42,979 bases of DNA from a virus, in IMG/VR virus record IMGVR_UViG_3300046507_000409, positions 1-42,979 of that record, one strand, 5' to 3'. This document shows positions 2,345 through 39,177 of this stretch, piece after piece. A model generated the notes under the pieces. That model saw nothing but the letters and a program-made list of their open reading frames with translations. It was not told the origin of the DNA and searched no databases. A program made the translations under genes and the position numbers. Numbering within the stretch: the stretch's first letter is position 1; each line of letters starts with the position of its first letter.

Positions 2345-2556
2345 ACCCGGACGATGACGATTTCGAAGACGAGTTCTACGACGATCGTGATGATGATCTC
2401 GACTGCTGGCACGAAGGCTACGACGCCGACATCCTGACCGGTGAAGCTTGGTGCTGGAGATGCCAGCACAAGTGGATCATGACAACCAAGGAGATCGCAG
2501 GCGAGATCGAGTTCCAGCGTGAATATTTGGAATGTGTCGAAGCGGAGGAGCGTTGA
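2341..2556 (+). CDS. Small acidic protein with one Cys-x-x-Cys pair
   Basis: A 71-residue protein whose first 20 residues are almost all Asp and Glu. A CWRC pair at about residues 38-41, with Cys22 and His24, could bind one metal ion, but a complete zinc ribbon is not evident. It directly precedes the transglycosylase gene with no spacing (TGA then ATG). Similar small acidic proteins are common in Rhizobiales phages; the role is unknown. Confidence 0.6.
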   Translation: MNPDDDDFEDEFYDDRDDDLDCWHEGYDADILTGEAWCWRCQHKWIMTTKEIAGEIEFQREYLECVEAEER

Positions 2557-3153
2557 ATGCTCGTCCTGCTCGACAACGGCCAGGATCTTGATGAGTGCGC
2601 CGAGGAGCTTGGCTGTGAAGTCGGCCAGTTGCTGACGCCTCTGACGCGTTACCGCCTTCGCACTGATGTCTTCGCGATCGACAACGGCAGTTTTGCGGGA
2701 TTTGAGATCCCTGCATTTCTGTCGCTTTTGGAGCGCGAGAAGCACAATCGCGATAAGTGCCTGTTCGTGGCCGCCCCTGACGTTGTCGCATCAGCTCGAC
2801 GCACGCTTGAGGTCTTCGAGCGCTGGAAACTGCGCCTAGCTGGCTGGCCGCTCGCTCTTGTCTGCCAAGACGGCCAAGAAGATTTGCCGCTACCGTGGGA
2901 CGATATCGCGGCGGTCTTTATCGGCGGCTCAACCAACTGGAAATGCTCACACCACGCCGAACATATCATCCGCGCCGCAAAGGCTCTTGAGAAGTGGGTT
3001 CACGTCGGGCGCATCAACGGTCCAGAGCGCTTCAAACATTTCGAAAATCTGGGAGCCGATTCCTGCGATGGGACTGGCCTCGCTCGATACACCCACATGC
3101 GCAAAAATATAGCAAGTCGCCACAATCAAGGAGACATATTCAATGCAGCATAG
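2557..3153 (+). CDS. dpdA: Short DpdA-like transglycosylase (TGT fold), putative 7-deazaguanine DNA modification enzyme
   Basis: This 198-residue protein resembles the short phage relatives of tRNA-guanine transglycosylase known as DpdA, which exchange guanine in DNA for a 7-deazaguanine such as preQ0. Family-like motifs appear in order: FAIDNGSF (residues 39-46, Asp42 a candidate catalytic acid), AAPDVV (72-77), LVCQDGQEDL (101-110), FIGGSTNWK (121-129), WVHVGRIN (147-154) and GADSCDGTG (166-174). GG-x-T and DGT are typical of the barrel's substrate pocket. The next gene, overlapping by 11 bases, encodes a queuosine-precursor transporter, which strongly supports the assignment. No precursor-synthesis genes (folE, queD, queE, queC) are seen. 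The exact base made, and whether DNA or tRNA is the target, cannot be told from sequence. Confidence 0.78.
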   Translation: MLVLLDNGQDLDECAEELGCEVGQLLTPLTRYRLRTDVFAIDNGSFAGFEIPAFLSLLEREKHNRDKCLFVAAPDVVASARRTLEVFERWKLRLAGWPLALVCQDGQEDLPLPWDDIAAVFIGGSTNWKCSHHAEHIIRAAKALEKWVHVGRINGPERFKHFENLGADSCDGTGLARYTHMRKNIASRHNQGDIFNAA

Positions 3154-3697
3154 GACCATTGGCCTGACAATCGCATTTGCCGCTACCATTCCCGCCGCTA
3201 ACTGGCTTATGACGCATGTCGGGACTGCGTGTCAGCCAGACGGCCCTTGCTTGCTGCCGGTAGGCTTTGGCCTCTACGCCCCAAGCGGCGTCCTGATGAT
3301 CGGCGCAGCCCTTGTCCTGCGAGATATGGTGCAGTTGACCGGCGGCATCCGTGCTGGGCTGCTGGCCATTGCGATCGGTGCGGCCATCTCGTGGTTCCTG
3401 TCGCCTCCTGCGCTCGTCATCGCTTCGGTCGCTGCTTTTCTGCTGTCGGAACTGGCTGACTTCGCGGTCTATACGCCGTTGCGGCGCAAGCAACTCGAAA
3501 TCGCCGTTCTGGCGAGTGGCGTCATCGGCTCGGTCATCGATAGCATCGTTTTCCTTTGGCTGGCTTTCGGCTCTCTAGCCTTCATAGAAGGGCAGATCAT
3601 CGGCAAAGTCTGGATGACGCTGTTGGCAATCCCGCTCATCCGCATCAGCCGCGCCGCCGCCCTCCGCGCCAAGCTTCAGGAGACCACCAATGACTGA
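3143..3697 (+). CDS. yhhQ: YhhQ/VUT-family queuosine precursor transporter
   Basis: A 184-residue inner-membrane protein with about six hydrophobic segments (around residues 5-25, 40-62, 68-88, 92-112, 118-140 and 150-168). The Leu-Arg-Asp after the second segment and the SELADFAVYTPLRR stretch resemble VUT/YhhQ proteins, which import 7-deazaguanine precursors such as preQ0 and preQ1. AAGGAG at 3128-3133 lies 9 bases before the ATG, inside the end of the dpdA-like gene. Overlap with that gene implies co-expression and a shared role: supplying precursor for base exchange. Family membership is judged from pattern; substrate is inferred from the neighbour. Confidence 0.75.
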   Translation: MQHRTIGLTIAFAATIPAANWLMTHVGTACQPDGPCLLPVGFGLYAPSGVLMIGAALVLRDMVQLTGGIRAGLLAIAIGAAISWFLSPPALVIASVAAFLLSELADFAVYTPLRRKQLEIAVLASGVIGSVIDSIVFLWLAFGSLAFIEGQIIGKVWMTLLAIPLIRISRAAALRAKLQETTND

Positions 3698-5484: not shown

Positions 5485-5691
5485 ATGAGCCGAGCCCGCA
5501 CTTACACCAAATCAGAAATTGCCGATGCTGCTGCTGCGGCAGCGACACACGGCGTTCGCGTCATAATGCACCCCTCGGGCGATATTGAATTTTCGCCCAG
5601 CACTGTCGCTGCAGACCGTGAAGAAGAGAGCAGCGGCTCTAAAGCGCTGAAGAGGTGGCTAGATGGAAGGGAATCTCGTCGGCGTGCATAA
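5485..5691 (+). CDS. Small protein preceding the integrase, possible excisionase/DNA-binding factor
   Basis: A 68-residue protein ending inside the integrase gene (29-base overlap). Short basic proteins with a helix such as TKSEIADAAAAAATHGVRV and a strand reading VIMHPSGDIEF occur directly upstream of many Rhizobiales integrases. Position suggests an excisionase or integration factor, but no helix-turn-helix is clear, so this is inference from context. Confidence 0.55.
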   Translation: MSRARTYTKSEIADAAAAAATHGVRVIMHPSGDIEFSPSTVAADREEESSGSKALKRWLDGRESRRRA

Positions 5692-6700
5692 GGTCAACGT
5701 CAAATTGGCGGACGGCACTACTGCGACATACTATTACGCTTGGCGCGGGAAAGGTGCGCCTCGCATCAAGGCAAAGCCGGGAACGAAGGCATTCACGCAG
5801 GAATTCATTCGTCTGACGCGTGACAGACCACAAGCCGTTTCAGAAAATACCATTGGGTCACTTATCGATGAGTTTCGGAAGACGGCTTCATATCTGAAGC
5901 TTTCCGCTTCGACCCGGCGGGACTACGAGCGCCAGTTTGGGGCGATACGCCTTGAATTCGGTGATTTCCCCGTCGAGGCTATTGAAGAGCGCGGCAGCCG
6001 GAAGATCTTCGTCACATGGCGAGACACGATGAAGGAATCGCCACGATCAGCAGATATGCATATTGCGCTGCTATCCAGACTTTTCGCGTGGGCCAAGGAC
6101 AATGAGGTTATCCTTCGCAACCCGTTGGAGCGCGTCCAACGCCTCCATGAGGGGACCAGACGCGATATCATCTGGTCGGATGAACAATTGTCGAAACTCC
6201 TAACCGAAGGCGTCCAGCACCTACGTGAGGTGGCGCTGATAGCGCTATGGACCATGCAGAGGCAAGCGGACGTGCTCACCATGTCGACACTTGCGTTCGA
6301 CGATGAGCGGGTCTCTATCAGGCAAGGGAAGACAGGAGCGCGGGTGCGTGTTGTAGCTGCTCCGGATATCCTGCCGGTTCTAAAAGCGGCCAAAGAGGAT
6401 AAGCGCCAGCGCGTGCTTGTGAACTCGTTCGGCCAAAACTGGACCTCTAGTGGGTTCAGGGCCTCTTGGCGCAAGGAAATGAAGCGGTTGGGGATAAAAG
6501 GCGTCACGTTCCACGATCTGCGCGGCACGGCCATCACCTACGCCTATTCCCAACTCGACCGATCGCATTCAGAAAAGATCAAGTTGATTGCCGAGATATC
6601 GGGGCATTCTGAGGAGGATGCCGAATCAATCATTCGGAAGCATTACCTCGCTGGACAGGAGGTAATTGACGCCATCGGGCGCGGAACGAACCGGGCATAA
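5663..6700 (+). CDS. int: Tyrosine-family phage integrase
   Basis: A 345-residue site-specific recombinase that integrates and excises the phage at attP. The catalytic set is complete: Arg200 (QRQADVL), Lys223 (QGKTG), His284 and Arg287 (HDLRGT), His315 (GHS) and the nucleophile Tyr328 (KHYLAG). An N-terminal arm-binding region (1-60) and a core-binding helical domain (about 62-160, starting ENTIGSLIDEF) precede the catalytic domain. The gene points towards the tRNA-derived core 63 bases downstream, and four identical repeats flank that core. The start at 5663 lies within the preceding small gene, so the two are probably coupled. Confidence 0.95.
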   Translation: MEGNLVGVHKVNVKLADGTTATYYYAWRGKGAPRIKAKPGTKAFTQEFIRLTRDRPQAVSENTIGSLIDEFRKTASYLKLSASTRRDYERQFGAIRLEFGDFPVEAIEERGSRKIFVTWRDTMKESPRSADMHIALLSRLFAWAKDNEVILRNPLERVQRLHEGTRRDIIWSDEQLSKLLTEGVQHLREVALIALWTMQRQADVLTMSTLAFDDERVSIRQGKTGARVRVVAAPDILPVLKAAKEDKRQRVLVNSFGQNWTSSGFRASWRKEMKRLGIKGVTFHDLRGTAITYAYSQLDRSHSEKIKLIAEISGHSEEDAESIIRKHYLAGQEVIDAIGRGTNRA

Positions 6701-23770: not shown

Positions 23771-24766
23771 TTAGCTCGATGCCGTGAGGCCGAAGATGTC
23801 TGCGGCAACGCCGAGACCTGCTTCGTTCTTCACCTTGAGGGTGCCTTCACCGATGATCACGCCCTTGTTCGCATCGCCGGTCTTGGCAACGTCCGGATCG
23901 TTCTGGATCTTGCGAAGCCAGTCGAATTCAGCGAAGTCAGGATCGATGAAGTGAACATTGCGGGCGAGCGTGGCGGACCCGGCCTGAACACGGTTGGGAA
24001 CAACCATGATCTTGCCGAACGGGCCTTCGTAGTAGTCGGCAGTCGCCACGATGGTGTTGCGCTGCCCGCCGGACGAGACCGCATAGCGGAATGATGCGAC
24101 GTTCGTATCCGACATGAAGGTCACGAAGACGGACTTCACGTAGGGCGACATGACGGCAAAGCCGAAGTTCGCACCGTTGGTGTAGCCCTGCTGCATGACG
24201 TTATCCAGGATCGCCTTGGTGAAGGCGCGCTGGGTGCCGTTGCCGGGGGCGACGGTCAGGCCCGTACCGCTGCTGAAGCCGCCGTTGGTGCCGCCAGAGC
24301 CGCGAGAGACGTTGCTGACGTACCAGGTCGGGAGACCGCCGAGGTTACGAATTGCGCCGGCGACCGATGCCTGCGGGTTGACGAGAGCGAATTCGGTATC
24401 CTTGCGGATCTCGACGCCCTTCTTGAGCTTCTGGTACTTGGTCTTCTGGACGTTGCCGGCTTCGTCAACGACGTCCTGCGTTCCGGAGATAATCCAGTCC
24501 TTGCGCAGGATCTGGGTATAGTTTCCGAGGCGTGCCGGCGGCGTGATCGCATCGAAGGTGTAATCTTCACCTTCTTCACGGGCATTCGATCCGGGAGCTG
24601 CGAGTGTGTCCGTTTCCCATTCCGGGTGGACAGTCTTGCAGGAACCCTTTTCGATGAGGGAGTAGATCGGGGTGTCTTCCGGCGTGATACGGGATACCAC
24701 GTCGGACAGCTCTTCGCGATTGCCTACCGCATTCGTCGTGCGGAAGGTGTTGGTAATGACTGACAT
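23771..24766 (-). CDS. Major capsid protein
   Basis: A 331-residue protein resembling the SU10/DUF5309 group of HK97-fold capsid proteins. The opening with DVVSRITPEDTPIYSLI, the WETDTLAAPGSNAREEGEDY segment and the later RAFTKAILDNVMQQGYTNG helix fit that family. It follows the scaffold gene and precedes the decoration gene. Length fits a capsid without an N-terminal scaffold domain. Confidence 0.85.
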   Translation of the reverse strand: MSVITNTFRTTNAVGNREELSDVVSRITPEDTPIYSLIEKGSCKTVHPEWETDTLAAPGSNAREEGEDYTFDAITPPARLGNYTQILRKDWIISGTQDVVDEAGNVQKTKYQKLKKGVEIRKDTEFALVNPQASVAGAIRNLGGLPTWYVSNVSRGSGGTNGGFSSGTGLTVAPGNGTQRAFTKAILDNVMQQGYTNGANFGFAVMSPYVKSVFVTFMSDTNVASFRYAVSSGGQRNTIVATADYYEGPFGKIMVVPNRVQAGSATLARNVHFIDPDFAEFDWLRKIQNDPDVAKTGDANKGVIIGEGTLKVKNEAGLGVAADIFGLTASS

Positions 24767-25807: not shown

Positions 25808-26047
25808 TCAGGCTGGGGCGCTTTTCCGCTTCGCATTGGCTTCGTCTATGATGACGTTGAGCTTGGAGCGGAAATTCCGGATGGCGCGGGCTTCTGCTGC
25901 GAAGGCGGCGCGCTTATCGTGGTCTGTCGGGTCGGCATAGACACAGGCGTCGATCGCCTGGTTCTCCATCTCGGCCCAGAATTCCTGAAACAGCGGGTTG
26001 TCGACAAGGCTGCGGGCCTGAGCAATCTTTTCCTTTTCGCTCATCAT
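25808..26047 (-). CDS. Small helical protein between portal and scaffold genes
   Basis: A 79-residue helical protein. Two Met codons open it (26047 and 26044); 26047 overlaps the portal stop as ATGA. It has an aromatic/acidic patch (LFQEFWAEMENQAIDACVY) and a basic C-terminus. No family is recognised; assembly or packaging factor is possible by position. Confidence 0.6.
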   Translation of the reverse strand: MMSEKEKIAQARSLVDNPLFQEFWAEMENQAIDACVYADPTDHDKRAAFAAEARAIRNFRSKLNVIIDEANAKRKSAPA

Positions 26048-28200
26048 CCCGGTTGCCCCCCAACCTCAACTGGAGAACTGGTCGGCGGCGATACCTGCTG
26101 CCTCAACTCGATCTCGGCGGCATTCTGCTGGCGCTTCAGTTCCAGTTCGGCTATGAGCTGATTGCGCTTCAATTCCAGCTCCCGGTTCAATTGCTCCTGC
26201 TTCAGGGCAAATTCGCGGTTCATGCGCTCCATTTCCAGCGAATAATCCTGCTGCTGCTGCTGGCTCTGGATCTGGAGATCGAATTGCGCCTTCTGTTGCT
26301 GGTTCTGAGCGTCGAGCTGTGCCTTTTGAGCGCTAGCCTGCGCATCTGCCTGGACCTTGAGCGCCGCAGGATCTGGCTTGTTTGCCGCCGCCTGCATCTT
26401 CTGCGCGATCTCTTGCGGGTCAGGCTTCGTGAAATACTGATCTGTCGCCTTGGCGCCGGCCGATTCAGCGAATTTCGTCACGGCGTTGTAGAGATTGTCG
26501 GGCTTTACGAACGGATTGTCTGGGCCGAGATTGAGCAGCAAGTCCTTCTGCAGGCCGATGATCTGCGTCATCATCATCATGTCGCGCTCTCGCGTACCAG
26601 CACCAAGGCCGGTGTTTACCGTCGCGTTCATGCCTGCATTCCACTGGCGCGGGTCGAAGGTCACCCATTGGCCACGCAGATACACAGTTCGAGGCACGTC
26701 CTGGTGCTTGATGATCGTCTTCAGCAGGCCTTCGAAGACGCGCTTCAGACCGCGTGCGATCGTCTTGACCATCAATTCCGTCTGGCCGATGCCGCCCTGC
26801 TCGATCAGAGCCGTGGCCTTGGCCGTCATGTTCTGCAGCGCATCCGGCGCCATGCCGCTCGATGCATCGGAAATGCCGGTCCTGTCCGTCGACTCCTTGT
26901 CGAGATATTCAAGCATGCCGAAGGACTGCTCGGCAACGAACGGGATCGGATTATATGCGACAGCAGCGCGGGCATCAGTCCCCTGCTTGACGCGGATCGG
27001 TTTGCCGAATGACGGGTTCAGGACCGCATCAGGGTTGACAATGACGCCTTCCTGCACGGTCGGCTGCGGCATGTTCTGCCAATAGAGGTTGTCGAGCGTC
27101 TGGCGAAGCAGAACCGTCTTGATCTTCTGTATTTCCATTTCATCGTCGGAAATGGAGTCGCCCTCGCGCTGATGCGGCCGGCGGGCGCAGATGATATCCG
27201 CGAACGGAACTTCGTCGCACTCTTCGTTCTCAAGCAGGTTCTGGACACCAAGGCCGCCGGCGAAGACCAGGCGGCGCAACTCGGCAATTCCATCGTCATC
27301 GGCGTCGACGCGAACGTAAAGCTCGTAATACTCGACTTCCTGAAGCTGGCGCTGCACCATGTCGTCATGGCGGTAGACTTCGCGGCGCCTCGTGTCTTCC
27401 TCGCTGTCCTGTTCGATGTCACCGGCAGCCATAGACAGGGTTTCGATCTTATCGCGATCGTAGCCCATGGCGACCAGCTCTGAACGACGCAGGCGCTTGT
27501 TGATGCCTGTGATTGGGCTTTCCGCGATGTCGAGAGCATCAGGGTGGACAAGCAGCTCTTCAGGCGGGACGGCGGCAAGGAGCGTCTTGCCCTGCACCTT
27601 CTTGCGCCGGATCTTCACGTTGTAGGTCGTGATCTCCTGCGCGCCCTGCTCGGTGACAATTTGCTCCTGCTGGGTGCTCTGCTCTATGACTTCGACATCG
27701 TCATCGGCCACGAGCTGGACAAGCTCTTCTTCCGGCAATCCGGTATGGCTGGAGACGCTGGTCGTGATGCGCTTGTCAAACCACCAGCGTATAATGCCGT
27801 TGCGCAGCTTCAATGCGTCATCAATCGCGTCTTCCACCGCTTCCGGGCCATTGCTTTCCGGGAAGACGATGGAATTGACGTAATCGGTTGCCTGCGCCGC
27901 TTGTTCGACGCGAAGATTGTCCTGTTCGTCGCTGCCGTCGCTCACCGGGCAATACTCGACAACCTTGTCATTGCCAAGAATGATGCGCATGACCGAAGGC
28001 TTGACCTTCTTGATGATGGCCTTGACATCACGGGAGACGACCTGAGACCGGCCCTGCTCCGCCACGACGTCTTTCATTTCGCCGTCGTAATATTCCATCA
28101 TCTTGTCGCGATCCTGCGACAGCTCATTACGATAGCTCTGGCAGTCCTTGACGAGCAGGCTTACGATGTTGGCAAGTTCGGCGTCTTTCATAGCTACCAT
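26044..28200 (-). CDS. Portal protein
   Basis: A 718-residue protein, close in length to the P22 portal (725). The N-terminal half contains conserved-looking portal segments (MMEYYDGEMKDVVAEQGRSQ, VSRDVKAIIKKVKPSVMRIIL). The C-terminal 120 residues are a Gln-rich helical barrel (QAKFDLQIQSQQQQQDYSLE), a feature of P22-like portals. It forms the dodecameric entry ring and follows directly after the large terminase gene. Confidence 0.85.
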   Translation of the reverse strand: MVAMKDAELANIVSLLVKDCQSYRNELSQDRDKMMEYYDGEMKDVVAEQGRSQVVSRDVKAIIKKVKPSVMRIILGNDKVVEYCPVSDGSDEQDNLRVEQAAQATDYVNSIVFPESNGPEAVEDAIDDALKLRNGIIRWWFDKRITTSVSSHTGLPEEELVQLVADDDVEVIEQSTQQEQIVTEQGAQEITTYNVKIRRKKVQGKTLLAAVPPEELLVHPDALDIAESPITGINKRLRRSELVAMGYDRDKIETLSMAAGDIEQDSEEDTRRREVYRHDDMVQRQLQEVEYYELYVRVDADDDGIAELRRLVFAGGLGVQNLLENEECDEVPFADIICARRPHQREGDSISDDEMEIQKIKTVLLRQTLDNLYWQNMPQPTVQEGVIVNPDAVLNPSFGKPIRVKQGTDARAAVAYNPIPFVAEQSFGMLEYLDKESTDRTGISDASSGMAPDALQNMTAKATALIEQGGIGQTELMVKTIARGLKRVFEGLLKTIIKHQDVPRTVYLRGQWVTFDPRQWNAGMNATVNTGLGAGTRERDMMMMTQIIGLQKDLLLNLGPDNPFVKPDNLYNAVTKFAESAGAKATDQYFTKPDPQEIAQKMQAAANKPDPAALKVQADAQASAQKAQLDAQNQQQKAQFDLQIQSQQQQQDYSLEMERMNREFALKQEQLNRELELKRNQLIAELELKRQQNAAEIELRQQVSPPTSSPVEVGGQPG

Positions 28201-32230: not shown

Positions 32231-32980
32231 TTATTTCCCCTCTCGCTCTGCCCTGATTTTTTTAACCGCATGCAGGACGCTCGTATGGTCTCGGCCGCCG
32301 AAAATCCTTCCAATCAAAGGAAAGCTAAGATCGTTTCGCTCCCGATACAGTGCGTACATGCACTCATGCCGCGCCTTCACGACGTACCGGTTTCTGTGGA
32401 TGCCGGTTATATCGGACCATGTGACGCCAGGATAATTCTTCAGCGTCTCGAAAACGATTTCGCGGACAGGTCTCTTGACTTCTGAGATCGATTCAATCTC
32501 TGCCTCTGCTTCCATTACCTTATTGGCCGCTACAGATCCGATAGCCTTTACCTTTTCCCAGGCCTTCACGTGGCTATCGAAATAGGTACTCACCCACATC
32601 CACATAGGCTGCTCAGCTGTCCAAGCCTTCTTTGCCGGCTTTTCAGCTGGAGGCGGCACGACAATTTCCACTTCTTCCTTCACCTGACGCTTAGGAGAAA
32701 AAAGCCTCTGGCGCCGCAACAGGTGCGTGATATGTATCTGCCGTTCCAACTCCGATACGCGTACAATCTCGTTCATTATTCCGCTGCGCTCCTCTGTTCT
32801 TGTTGTTGTGGTGCCCATACCTGTCCTCCTGAACCAAAGCCAGATTGATCCAGTCGGGTATTCCTTCCGGCGAGATTTAAGGATCATCTCGTCTATGGAG
32901 ATGCCTTTGGCTATGAGCCGGAAGCCCTTGGCATGAAGCTTGTCGCCTTCTATCTCGTGGGTGGTGTGCCAGTTTTTCAT
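32231..32980 (-). CDS. Replication-associated protein with DnaA domain IV
   Basis: A 249-residue protein. The last 80 residues have the DnaA C-terminal DNA-binding domain: REIVFETLKNYPGVTWSDI, KARHECMYALYRERNDLS and the signature GGRDHTSVLHAVKKI. No AAA+ region is present, so it may bind DnaA boxes to recruit or compete with host DnaA. The ATG at 32980 overlaps the methyltransferase stop (ATGA), but a very good AGGAGG 7 bases before the internal ATG at 32818 suggests a second or the only start there. Confidence 0.7.
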   Translation of the reverse strand: MKNWHTTHEIEGDKLHAKGFRLIAKGISIDEMILKSRRKEYPTGSIWLWFRRTGMGTTTTRTEERSGIMNEIVRVSELERQIHITHLLRRQRLFSPKRQVKEEVEIVVPPPAEKPAKKAWTAEQPMWMWVSTYFDSHVKAWEKVKAIGSVAANKVMEAEAEIESISEVKRPVREIVFETLKNYPGVTWSDITGIHRNRYVVKARHECMYALYRERNDLSFPLIGRIFGGRDHTSVLHAVKKIRAEREGK

Positions 32981-33756
32981 GGAGAAAATTCCATGAATGC
33001 GGCAATCACTTCCGCCGCGACTTGCGGGACGATGGCATTTCCGTAGGCGCGCAACTTTCCCACTCTGGCGGGAACCCCATGAGCCAGCAGACGAATGCCG
33101 GGTTCAACGCGCCGGGCTTTTCCATCGGCTCCAACTGCGAAGACGGCACCAGCCCAAGCGGCTCTGCGTCCGACAGGTTCGACATTCCGTGGCCATTCGC
33201 TTTGTGCTTCGCGATGTATTCTGGAGAATGGGCAGGGAAGTGATCCCGGGCATTCGGTGTTGGCCACAAACCAGAGTCGATCTCTTCGGTGGGGCGCATC
33301 GACGGCACAAGCCGGGACAACGGCCGCCCCGCAGGCGTAACCGATGCCTTCCAGGTCAATATGCACTCCGTCGAGCCAATCCTTTCCAACCGCTGCCGCA
33401 ACCTGTTCTCCCATGATGACATTGGGCCTTGAGGCACCGATGAGATCGAAGAAGACGGGCCAGAGATGGCGGACGTCCGCTTGGCCTGCGCCCTTGCCGG
33501 CAACACTGAATGGCTGGCAGGGGCAAGAGCCGGTCCAAAGCTCTCGATCGTCAGGCCAGCCAGCAAGTCTAGCTGCATAGGACCATCCACCGATACCGGC
33601 GAAGAAATGGCATTGGGTATAGCCCTTGAGGTCATCGGCTTTCACATCCTCGATTGAGCGTTCGTCCACGTCGCCGGGAGCAATGTGGCCGGCCTCGATC
33701 AGGTTGCGCAGCCATTGCGCGGCGTATGGGTCGATCTCGTTATAGTAGGCCGTCAC
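32977..33756 (-). CDS. C5-cytosine DNA methyltransferase
   Basis: A 259-residue enzyme transferring a methyl group to cytosine C5. Motif I FAGIGG (52-57), motif IV PCQ with nucleophile Cys80, motif VI as EQV (117-119; usually ENV), motif VIII HRRDR (156-160) and motif X near AYGNAIVPQVAAEVI are present. The target-recognition region is short. No restriction enzyme lies nearby, so it is probably an orphan that protects phage DNA. It overlaps genes at both ends by ATGA. A second long open frame lies inside it in the +1 frame. Confidence 0.85.
   Translation of the reverse strand: MTAYYNEIDPYAAQWLRNLIEAGHIAPGDVDERSIEDVKADDLKGYTQCHFFAGIGGWSYAARLAGWPDDRELWTGSCPCQPFSVAGKGAGQADVRHLWPVFFDLIGASRPNVIMGEQVAAAVGKDWLDGVHIDLEGIGYACGAAVVPACAVDAPHRRDRLWFVANTECPGSLPCPFSRIHREAQSEWPRNVEPVGRRAAWAGAVFAVGADGKARRVEPGIRLLAHGVPARVGKLRAYGNAIVPQVAAEVIAAFMEFSP
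33006..33635 (-). CDS. Overlapping frame within the methyltransferase gene, possibly a genuine second gene
   Basis: A 209-residue open frame lies wholly inside the C5-methyltransferase gene, shifted by +1. Its product contains segments I recall from many annotated proteins found with this type of phage methyltransferase: STECILTWKASVTPAGRP, GLWPTPNARDH and a C-terminal LNPAFVCWLMGFPPEWE followed by SSRKSRRK. The WLMGxPxEW stretch resembles the C-terminus of other phage methyltransferases. Either both frames are translated, or the frame is an inherited by-product. Expression is unproven. Confidence 0.45.
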   Translation of the reverse strand: MTSRAIPNAISSPVSVDGPMQLDLLAGLTIESFGPALAPASHSVLPARAQAKRTSAISGPSSSISSVPQGPMSSWENRLRQRLERIGSTECILTWKASVTPAGRPLSRLVPSMRPTEEIDSGLWPTPNARDHFPAHSPEYIAKHKANGHGMSNLSDAEPLGLVPSSQLEPMEKPGALNPAFVCWLMGFPPEWESCAPTEMPSSRKSRRK

Positions 33757-34130: not shown

Positions 34131-34798
34131 CAGAACATTTCCCCTTGTCTTGCATCGTTGCGATCGAGCATACGAAGGACAGTTTCGCCAACATGGCGCT
34201 TATCCCAGACGAACCACCCGTTCAGCATCGGCGGGGCTCCCTGCCCCGTGAAATCGATCTTCCAGCGCATGAGGTATACGCGGGCTGGCGGGTGCTTCGC
34301 CCAGAATGGACCAAGGCCACCGGCGCCCGGGAATCCCCAATTCATGAGGAGAGCCATGTACTCGATGCCAAGGGTGTCAAGCGCATGGTAAAGCCAGCGA
34401 GCTTTGCCGTTGCCCCAACCACATTCGGCGAATGGAGGATTCTCAACGATGGCATTGGCTGGAGCCGCCTGGAAATCGTAGAAGTTCTTGATCTCAGCCC
34501 CGCAGCCCCGGTCGATCAAATCGCTGTCGACGGTTTCGAAGCCATGGACTCGAAGCTCTCGACCGATCACGCCGGTTCCGCAGGCTGGCCCCCAGATGGT
34601 CGGGAAGGCTCGCAGCGCTTCCATCTCGGCACGGACAAACGATCGGATCGGGTCTATCGGCGTCGGATAGAATTCGTTCGGCTCGCGCTCAAGTGCGTCT
34701 GCCTTGACGAGATTGCCTACGAGGTCACGGATGACGACAGGCTTTGATTTCTTGCCGGTGGCGCGGAATAGGCCACGTGCTGATACAGGAGCGTTCAT
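34130..34798 (-). CDS. Putative adenine-N6-type DNA methyltransferase
   Basis: A 222-residue class I SAM-dependent methyltransferase. IWGPACGTGVIG carries the SAM-binding motif I (PACGTG), ETVDSDL is the acidic strand-2 end, and IVENPPFAE is the NPPF catalytic motif IV of amino-methyltransferases. The start 34798 overlaps the RusA-like stop by ATGA; 34807 would be inside that gene. It is the second DNA methyltransferase of the phage and may guard against restriction. Confidence 0.75.
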   Translation of the reverse strand: MNAPVSARGLFRATGKKSKPVVIRDLVGNLVKADALEREPNEFYPTPIDPIRSFVRAEMEALRAFPTIWGPACGTGVIGRELRVHGFETVDSDLIDRGCGAEIKNFYDFQAAPANAIVENPPFAECGWGNGKARWLYHALDTLGIEYMALLMNWGFPGAGGLGPFWAKHPPARVYLMRWKIDFTGQGAPPMLNGWFVWDKRHVGETVLRMLDRNDARQGEMF

Positions 34799-35151
34799 GC
34801 AGCCCACTCCAGTTCAATTTTTACCATTCCGGATTTCTCGATCGGACCACGAGGCGCGATCGATATTTCCCAATTCGCATCATCAACGCCGATGGCCGAG
34901 GCAATGCCGTCGAAGGCCGCTTTGCAGGACGCAAACGCGTTATCGATGTCACGCGGCCGGCGGTCGGGAGGGAAGAACGAGACGCGCACGTTAAGGCGCT
35001 GTGTGTCGATACGGCCTATGCCAGATTCGAGCGTGGTATAGTAGGCATCACGCTTGGCCTGTTTCTTCGCACGAGCGAGAGATGACCAATGCACCCTGGC
35101 ATTCGGGCTTAGGCGACGATCGGGCCATGGAAGGAAGATTGTCGCGTTCAT
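34795..35151 (-). CDS. rusA: RusA-like Holliday junction resolvase
   Basis: A 118-residue protein with the RusA layout: an opening LPWPDRRLSPNARVHW with basic helix (SLARAKKQAKRDAYY) and the acidic centre RPRDIDNAFASCKAAFDGI with the aspartates that bind metal, ending VDDANWEI. It cuts four-way junctions during recombination or packaging. Start 35151 overlaps the previous stop by ATGA; an upstream in-frame start at 35184 is less likely. Confidence 0.8.
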   Translation of the reverse strand: MNATIFLPWPDRRLSPNARVHWSSLARAKKQAKRDAYYTTLESGIGRIDTQRLNVRVSFFPPDRRPRDIDNAFASCKAAFDGIASAIGVDDANWEISIAPRGPIEKSGMVKIELEWAA

Positions 35152-38438: not shown

Positions 38439-38452
38439 CATGATGCATGTTG
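38421..38452. promoter_or_regulatory. Right operators of the immunity region (two 17-bp palindromes)
   Basis: Two 17-base palindromes of form 7-3-7 overlap by 2 bases: CAACACG-CTG-CGTGTCA (38421-38437) and CAACATG-ATG-CATGTTG (38436-38452, perfect). Centres are 15 bases apart. The first covers the cro -35 box and the second lies just upstream of the cI -10 box, as expected for CI and Cro binding sites. Confidence 0.75.
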
Positions 38453-38462
38453 GAAAATTGTA

Positions 38463-38468
38463 TATGAT
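38463..38468 (+). promoter_or_regulatory. -10 box of the cI promoter (leaderless start)
   Basis: TATGAT at 38463-38468 lies 7 bases before the ATG at 38476, so the expected first transcribed base is the start codon itself. No good -35 is seen, as in activator-dependent PRM promoters. The perfect operator at 38436-38452 ends 10 bases upstream, a suitable place for CI to activate. Confidence 0.5.
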
Positions 38469-38475
38469 TGAATTC

Positions 38476-39177
38476 ATGAGCGAAAAACACGAACGCCTTC
38501 GACAGGCGCGCATTGACGCGGGCTATGGAAGCGCACAATCGGCTGCAGATGCCCTTGGCATTACGGCCTCGACCTACCGTGCGCACGAAAATGGTCAAAA
38601 TGATTTTGGGCTAGAAGAAGCTCAGATATACGGTCGGAAATTCTCGGTCGACCCGATTTGGATAATGACCAACGCTGTTAGCCAGTCAAAAGCTACAGTT
38701 GCGGAAGGTTCAATTCCGTCTAATATAGTCTCCTTGCGGGAAGTCCCAAATGCTGAAATCGGGGAAAAAGTTAAGGCCGCAGGGCCGAAAATCCCGGTTT
38801 TTGGACAAGCCGTAGGCGGGGTTGACGGGGAATTCATAATGAACGGGAGTATTTTGTACGAGGTCATGGCGCCTCCGACCATATCGGACATTAGCGGCGC
38901 ATACGCAGTAAGCATTGCCGGCGATTCTATGACGCCTCGATATGACGACGGAGAAATCGCCTTTATTGATCCGAGCCGGCGAGTGAGAAAGGGTGACTAT
39001 GTCGTTGCCCAGATTCGCTACGAGGAAGAAGGCCCGATCCTGGCTTTCGTCAAGAAGTTCGTCCGCCACAACGCCGACGAACTCGTTCTCGAACAGTTCA
39101 ACCCGCCGAAACAGCTCACGTTTCCACATCACAACGTTGTATCAGTCCATTATATCGCTATGGCTGGTAATGCTTGA
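38476..39177 (+). CDS. cI: CI-like repressor with S24/LexA peptidase domain
   Basis: A 233-residue lysogeny repressor. An XRE-type HTH (about residues 6-45, RLRQARIDAGYGSAQSAADA) is followed by a linker and an S24 peptidase fold: Ser151 in GDSMTPRYDDGE and Lys193 in AFVKKF. The AVGG at 112-115 is a candidate self-cleavage site, implying RecA-dependent induction. In-frame ATGs occur at 38440 and 38464, but the -10 box at 38463-38468 favours a leaderless start at 38476. It should bind the operators at 38.4 and 39.6 kb. Confidence 0.85.
   Translation: MSEKHERLRQARIDAGYGSAQSAADALGITASTYRAHENGQNDFGLEEAQIYGRKFSVDPIWIMTNAVSQSKATVAEGSIPSNIVSLREVPNAEIGEKVKAAGPKIPVFGQAVGGVDGEFIMNGSILYEVMAPPTISDISGAYAVSIAGDSMTPRYDDGEIAFIDPSRRVRKGDYVVAQIRYEEEGPILAFVKKFVRHNADELVLEQFNPPKQLTFPHHNVVSVHYIAMAGNA

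Follow-up and report, generated by a model that had tools for sequence, protein, structure and literature searches.

The sequence analysed here, referred to as the window, is the whole virus record IMGVR_UViG_3300046507_000409 (42,979 bases). Near its left end, two genes with ATG starts lie on the plus strand. The first (2557..3153) encodes a DpdA-like protein of 198 aa that belongs to phrog_15826. The second (3143..3697) is an open reading frame with a PF02592 match, and encodes a predicted YhhQ/QPTR-like (COG1738, Vut_1/DUF165) membrane importer of 184 aa. An earlier note, made from the sequence alone, had described a dpdA-like gene overlapping a YhhQ/VUT-type gene by 11 bases. This arrangement was borne out, with bases 3143-3153 shared by the two plus-strand genes. 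Both starts are preceded by good Shine-Dalgarno sequences, GGAGGAG at 2544..2550 for the DpdA-like gene and AAGGAG at 3128..3133 for the transporter gene, the latter lying inside the first gene at its 3' end. The 11-base overlap fits co-translation of both genes from one message.

The gene pair sits in an early-type region that also encodes a NinB recombination protein, a DUF968/HNH protein, and a phage integrase. The remaining genome is that of an SU10-like phage and encodes a portal protein, major capsid protein, large terminase, lysozyme, CI-like repressor, and two DNA methyltransferases. The record lacks terminal repeats, its left end cuts through a gene, and thus it may be incomplete; related Rhizobium phages are likewise 43.0 kb long. 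By DNA, the record matches Rhizobium and Sinorhizobium phages of 41.8-64.2 kb most closely; its host is therefore likely to be rhizobial, and its genome temperate and nearly complete. SU10-type portal and capsid genes (26047-28200 and 23774-24766) occur alongside integrase and CI-like repressor genes (5663-6697 and 38440-39174), and the virus is likely to be a temperate podovirus-type phage related to the 43-kb Rhizobium phages. The two methyltransferase genes (32980-33756 and 34133-34807 (-)), one of which is of the C5-cytosine type, suggest that the phage uses conventional DNA modification as well. Neither an Rfam element (such as a preQ1 riboswitch) nor a tRNA was found in the 42,979 bases. 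When genome contigs were searched for prophages, for host assignment, a single Novosphingobium locus was recovered. The enzyme gene was present in just one of 289 alphaproteobacterial genomes, the one on which the sample was centred, and therefore the compact DpdA-like gene is mainly a phage gene.

None of the Pfam and NCBIfam models, including PF23859, was matched by the first gene product, and its only PHROG, phrog_15826 (E 1.9e-34), has an unknown function. We call the gene DpdA-like because of profile comparison, conserved residues, and gene neighbourhood. In an hhalign profile comparison, the 9g/CAjan DpdA family matched the enzyme with an E value of 8e-7 and a probability of 92%. As a control, the enzyme profile was compared with 32 families built from the collected loci. 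Apart from the enzyme family itself, the 9g-type DpdA cluster ranked top (E 3e-7), followed by a mixed cluster that includes the PF23859 DpdAs (E 0.01), while the other 29 families scored 0.026 or worse. Moreover, an intermediate family (about 227 aa) gives E 5e-37 against phrog_887, the PHROG of the DpdAs from 9g and CAjan, and 0.003 against phrog_15826. Members of the enzyme family have already been annotated as "DpdA-like tRNA-guanine transglycosylase" in several actinobacteriophages. As regards the search against DpdA and TGT profiles proposed in the earlier note, 9g-type DpdA was reached in profile comparison, and no TGT or DpdA model of Pfam or NCBIfam was matched directly.

In an alignment of 25 members, D42, P74-D75, Q104, G106, G123-G124, H149, G151-R152, N154, S169, and D171 are invariant or nearly so. 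The eight strands of the enzyme's AlphaFold model (pLDDT 88.7, pTM 0.85) follow the order of a TIM barrel, and these residues fall at the ends of predicted strands 3 to 8. D89, D143, Q187, a GG pair, the glycines of the MGVG motif, and D264 are the established catalytic positions of E. coli TGT. D42, D75, Q104, G123/G124, G151, and D171 occur in the same order. By this order, the nearly invariant D42 (codon 2680..2682, plus strand as for the following codons), in a DNG motif at the end of strand 3 (residues 39-41), would correspond to D89; the invariant D75 (2779..2781), in a PDV motif at the end of strand 4, to D143; and the invariant Q104 (2866..2868), in a QDG motif at the end of strand 5, to Q187. 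The invariant D171 (3067..3069), in a GxDSxDG motif at the end of strand 8, would correspond to D264 and is the proposed nucleophile. The 9g and CAjan DpdAs are likewise predicted base-exchange barrels of the TGT superfamily, with DSG/DNG, GG, and terminal DS motifs in the same order and a profile similarity to the enzyme of E about 1e-6. They differ from it in length (306-317 aa; the 198-aa enzyme is about two thirds of the 317-aa 9g DpdA), in PHROG, and in their location in operons with FolE, QueD, QueE, and QueC.

It could be argued that the link to DpdA is spurious and that the first gene encodes an unrelated TIM-barrel enzyme, one resembling thiazole synthase or a phosphodiesterase, for instance. 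Direct searches of Pfam, NCBIfam, and PDB sequences gave no TGT or DpdA match, and those of PDB sequences with either protein of the pair or its profile returned nothing credible. Foldseek of the enzyme model against PDB returned generic TIM barrels with ThiG first and no TGT, so that the PDB fold search by itself would not identify the enzyme. Against this, the profile match to 9g-type DpdA stands far apart from those to the 29 other families, fold matches in BFVD include phage "queuine tRNA-ribosyltransferase" entries (E 4e-5), and the neighbour genes of the family are queC, queD, queE, or yhhQ. We therefore regard a spurious link as highly improbable. The first gene, as the earlier note had proposed, is supported as DpdA-like by these data, with the limit that its product would be a remote, though statistically supported, relative of the experimentally proven DpdAs and not a close one.

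The transporter scores 42.7 bits against Pfam PF02592 Vut_1 (cut-off 27.2, E 1e-10) and falls in phrog_4899. Against NCBIfam TIGR00697 "queuosine precursor transporter" it scores 38.2 bits (E 1e-9), under the equivalog cut-off of 50.95, and against PRK11212 24.6 bits, under the equivalog score of 252. Its model is mostly helical (pLDDT 94.9), and the best fold matches in PDB, although weak, are ECF S-components, with the biotin ECF S-component first (E 0.04). E. coli YhhQ (QPTR, COG1738) shares the Vut_1/DUF165 domain and a helical, S-component-like fold; unlike it, the transporter here is short (184 aa versus 221 model positions) and stays below both equivalog scores. By its domain match, the second gene product is thus a member of the Vut_1 superfamily that is not scored as a curated queuosine-precursor equivalog. 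The YhhQ/VUT-type assignment of the earlier note holds at the level of PF02592 but not at that of the curated TIGR00697 family. YhhQ of E. coli is a Vut_1/DUF165 relative required for preQ0 uptake, and in bacteria COG1738 proteins serve tRNA-queuosine salvage as transporters (PMC5372724). Substrates differ between COG1738 subfamilies (PMC11130926).

Scans of the 42,979-base record, which may be incomplete, gave no QueC, PTPS/QueD, FolE, or TGT, and its 54 other predicted proteins showed no radical SAM/QueE or QueF domain. These scans agree with the earlier claim that 7-deazaguanine synthesis genes are absent. Whole-record scans of this record and 19 other carriers of the pair likewise gave no QueC, PTPS, or FolE, while the control phage phiG7 gave all three. 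The phage therefore differs from the preQ0-synthesising DpdA phages (groups 1 and 2 of Hutinet 2019), which encode FolE, QueD, QueE, and QueC. It resembles the DpdA-only phages (group 3), in which DpdA occurs without preQ0 synthesis genes and for which host preQ0 or uptake of exogenous precursor has been proposed (PMC6884629). Unlike those phages, it has a dedicated importer gene overlapping the enzyme gene.

Among relatives of the enzyme without the transporter, 46 of 77 have queC, queD, or queE within 5 kb, versus none of the 29 with the transporter (Fisher p 1e-9, only indicative because shared descent is ignored). The partner also varies among the closest enzyme relatives: it is the transporter in loci L001, L079, L080, and L088, queD in L085, and an 80-aa gene (T80, described below) in L003 and L082. 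Because the partner changes among such close relatives, the data support exchange of precursor sources.

To see how often the two genes occur together, we assembled loci from three scans of viral contigs with the query's own proteins and then searched their ORFs with profiles; since they were collected in this way, the loci describe this transporter clade and not all of COG1738. A DpdA-type gene is present in the same locus in 73 of the 75 viral contigs with the transporter clade (this record included), nearly always adjoining the transporter gene. These partners belong to phrog_15826 (29 contigs), phrog_887 (37), or the PF23859 "DpdA" family (7). The partner is co-stranded with the transporter in 71 contigs, and both gene orders are seen; therefore the pairing is not one inherited arrangement. 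When transporters were clustered at 80% identity, the partner was kept in 37 of 38 clusters and lay within 150 bp in 32. In the one cluster without a partner (L076), the transporter gene lies on a fragmentary contig, at the edge of which is a QueC-like ORF.

Several isolated phages carry the pair, including Majeke (53/54) and its relatives from M. smegmatis, ReqiPine5 (gp04/gp03) from Rhodococcus, Aoka (38/40) from Arthrobacter, RHph_N3_2 (054/055) from Rhizobium, and phiLM21 (p025/p026) from Sinorhizobium. Outside phages, a transporter gene adjoins a PF23859 gene on a Streptomyces plasmid. On a Methylobacterium plasmid, a member of the transporter clade (61% identical) lies directly after dpdB-queE-queD-queC, a bacterial DNA-deazaguanine locus. 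The YhhQ of CAjan and of other Seuratvirus phages, which is more distant, sits inside a preQ0 synthesis operon. Bacterial dpd islands (DpdA-K), about 9% of which contain a YhhQ gene (PMC11888242), likewise serve 7-deazaguanine DNA modification, which is only predicted here; unlike them, this phage has no DpdB, DpdC, or restriction genes. In Streptococcus phage Dp-1, as here, a DpdA gene and a gene for a queuosine-precursor transporter share 11 bases, and Dp-1 DNA carries dPreQ1 (PMC6884629). Unlike the transporter here, that of Dp-1 is annotated as QueT (ECF type); the Dp-1 genome also has genes for preQ0 synthesis.

DpdA, YhhQ, and the presence of YhhQ in some phages were already known, and Dp-1 has its own overlapping QueT-DpdA pair. 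The main survey of phage 7-deazaguanine genes found YhhQ uncorrelated with any gene-content group of phages and did not account for the DpdA-only phages (PMC6884629). The pairing described here involves partners from three DpdA families and occurs in phages of both Proteobacteria and Actinobacteria, which suggests that precursor import is part of the DpdA-only puzzle.

We consider that the two genes are probably a salvage-only module for 7-deazaguanine DNA modification, in line with the salvage-only pair put forward in the earlier note. This reading is supported by the DpdA-type gene of three families beside the transporter, by the alternation of the transporter with preQ0 synthesis genes, and by the transporter clade in a bacterial dpd locus. 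The importer would bring a precursor base of queuosine (preQ0 or preQ1 being the most likely) across the inner membrane, and the DpdA-like enzyme would exchange guanine in phage DNA for the imported base after replication, by double displacement with D171 as the nucleophile. The modified guanines in the virion DNA would then block host restriction enzymes. The phage itself would make no precursor, and the sources could be the medium, lysed neighbours, or the host queuosine pathway. A role in DNA is proposed because the DpdAs of 9g and CAjan have been proven to act there; they insert 7-deazaguanines and protect the DNA (PMC6884629).

The same transglycosylase superfamily contains the tRNA enzymes, and the pair might instead act on tRNA. 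In that case, the enzyme would be a TGT paralogue of the phage; together with the importer, it would increase queuosine-type modification in the host tRNA, to the benefit of phage translation. The conserved order of catalytic residues and the part played by COG1738 in tRNA-queuosine salvage fit this idea. However, bacterial TGT (375 aa) has a C-terminal region with the C-x-C-x2-C zinc site, and the 198-aa enzyme lacks this region. In addition, its nearest characterised relatives are the DpdAs that act on DNA, and the transporter clade is found in a dpd locus, which is a DNA locus. A tRNA enzyme is thus ranked below a DNA enzyme, and we judge it quite improbable.

Modification might also take place only where the host already makes preQ0, with a transporter that is auxiliary or takes up another purine, so that the module would be largely host-fed rather than based on salvage. 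Salmonella phage 7-11, which has DpdA alone, is modified (PMC6884629), and the differences in substrate between COG1738 subfamilies would allow another purine. A strong full-length QueC was found in about a third of 96 sampled Alphaproteobacteria, a sample that includes small and incomplete genomes. This count speaks for a host-fed module, yet with only about a third, preQ0 production by the host is not assured. A merely auxiliary transporter does not agree well with the retention of the transporter beside a DpdA-type gene in nearly all clusters. Moreover, mycobacteriophages carry the pair and their host genus has no preQ0 pathway (PMC6884629); therefore import is the sole plausible precursor source there. 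We consider a largely host-fed module unlikely. Phage Orion has DpdA without synthesis genes and shows no modification in M. smegmatis (PMC6884629), and thus a DpdA gene alone is no guarantee of modification.

If DNA modification by salvage occurs as proposed, some phages may scavenge an ingredient that they cannot make and use it to protect their DNA. It is conceivable, though somewhat doubtful, that such phages form a widespread class with nutrient-dependent DNA modification, in which a minimal transglycosylase and an importer mark the DNA only where the precursor can be scavenged, even in hosts without 7-deazaguanine metabolism such as mycobacteria. In that case, the same phage would be resistant or sensitive to restriction depending on its surroundings. 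The mycobacteriophages with the pair offer a direct test of import in a host without the pathway. The much smaller DpdA (about 200 aa) may also be useful for inserting 7-deazaguanines into DNA in vitro.

Other genes were seen at these loci. The 80-aa gene T80 (phrog_37496-like) is found between the DpdA gene and the transporter gene or next to them at L005:5551-5832, L081:5543-5836, L017:4720-4977, and L021:1900-2157. It is next to DpdA and queD in L006-L010, it recurs across L006-L011, and it is absent from the record studied here. A comparison of T80 with the QueF profile was not significant (E 0.065). In its conserved CP...D...YE...QE pattern, the Cys, Asp, and Glu align with C190, D197, and E230 of E. 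coli QueF, and T80 may represent a minimal single-domain QueF-like enzyme. Phage phiG7 (L157:7932-8524) and Vibrio phage R29Z (L159:4767-5351) have a second, compact DpdA-like gene adjoining DNA polymerase genes, besides a canonical 9g-type DpdA and genes for preQ0 synthesis; in phiG7 the compact gene is split over two overlapping ORFs. In Arthrobacter phage Aoka, an unknown gene of 110-aa size (gp39, L176:2992-3321) lies between the importer gene (gp38) and the DpdA-like gene (gp40). Rhodococcus phage ReqiPine5 and Erythrobacter phage R6L have PAPS-reductase-type genes near their compact DpdA-like gene (L160:3601-4518, L161:5343-6386).
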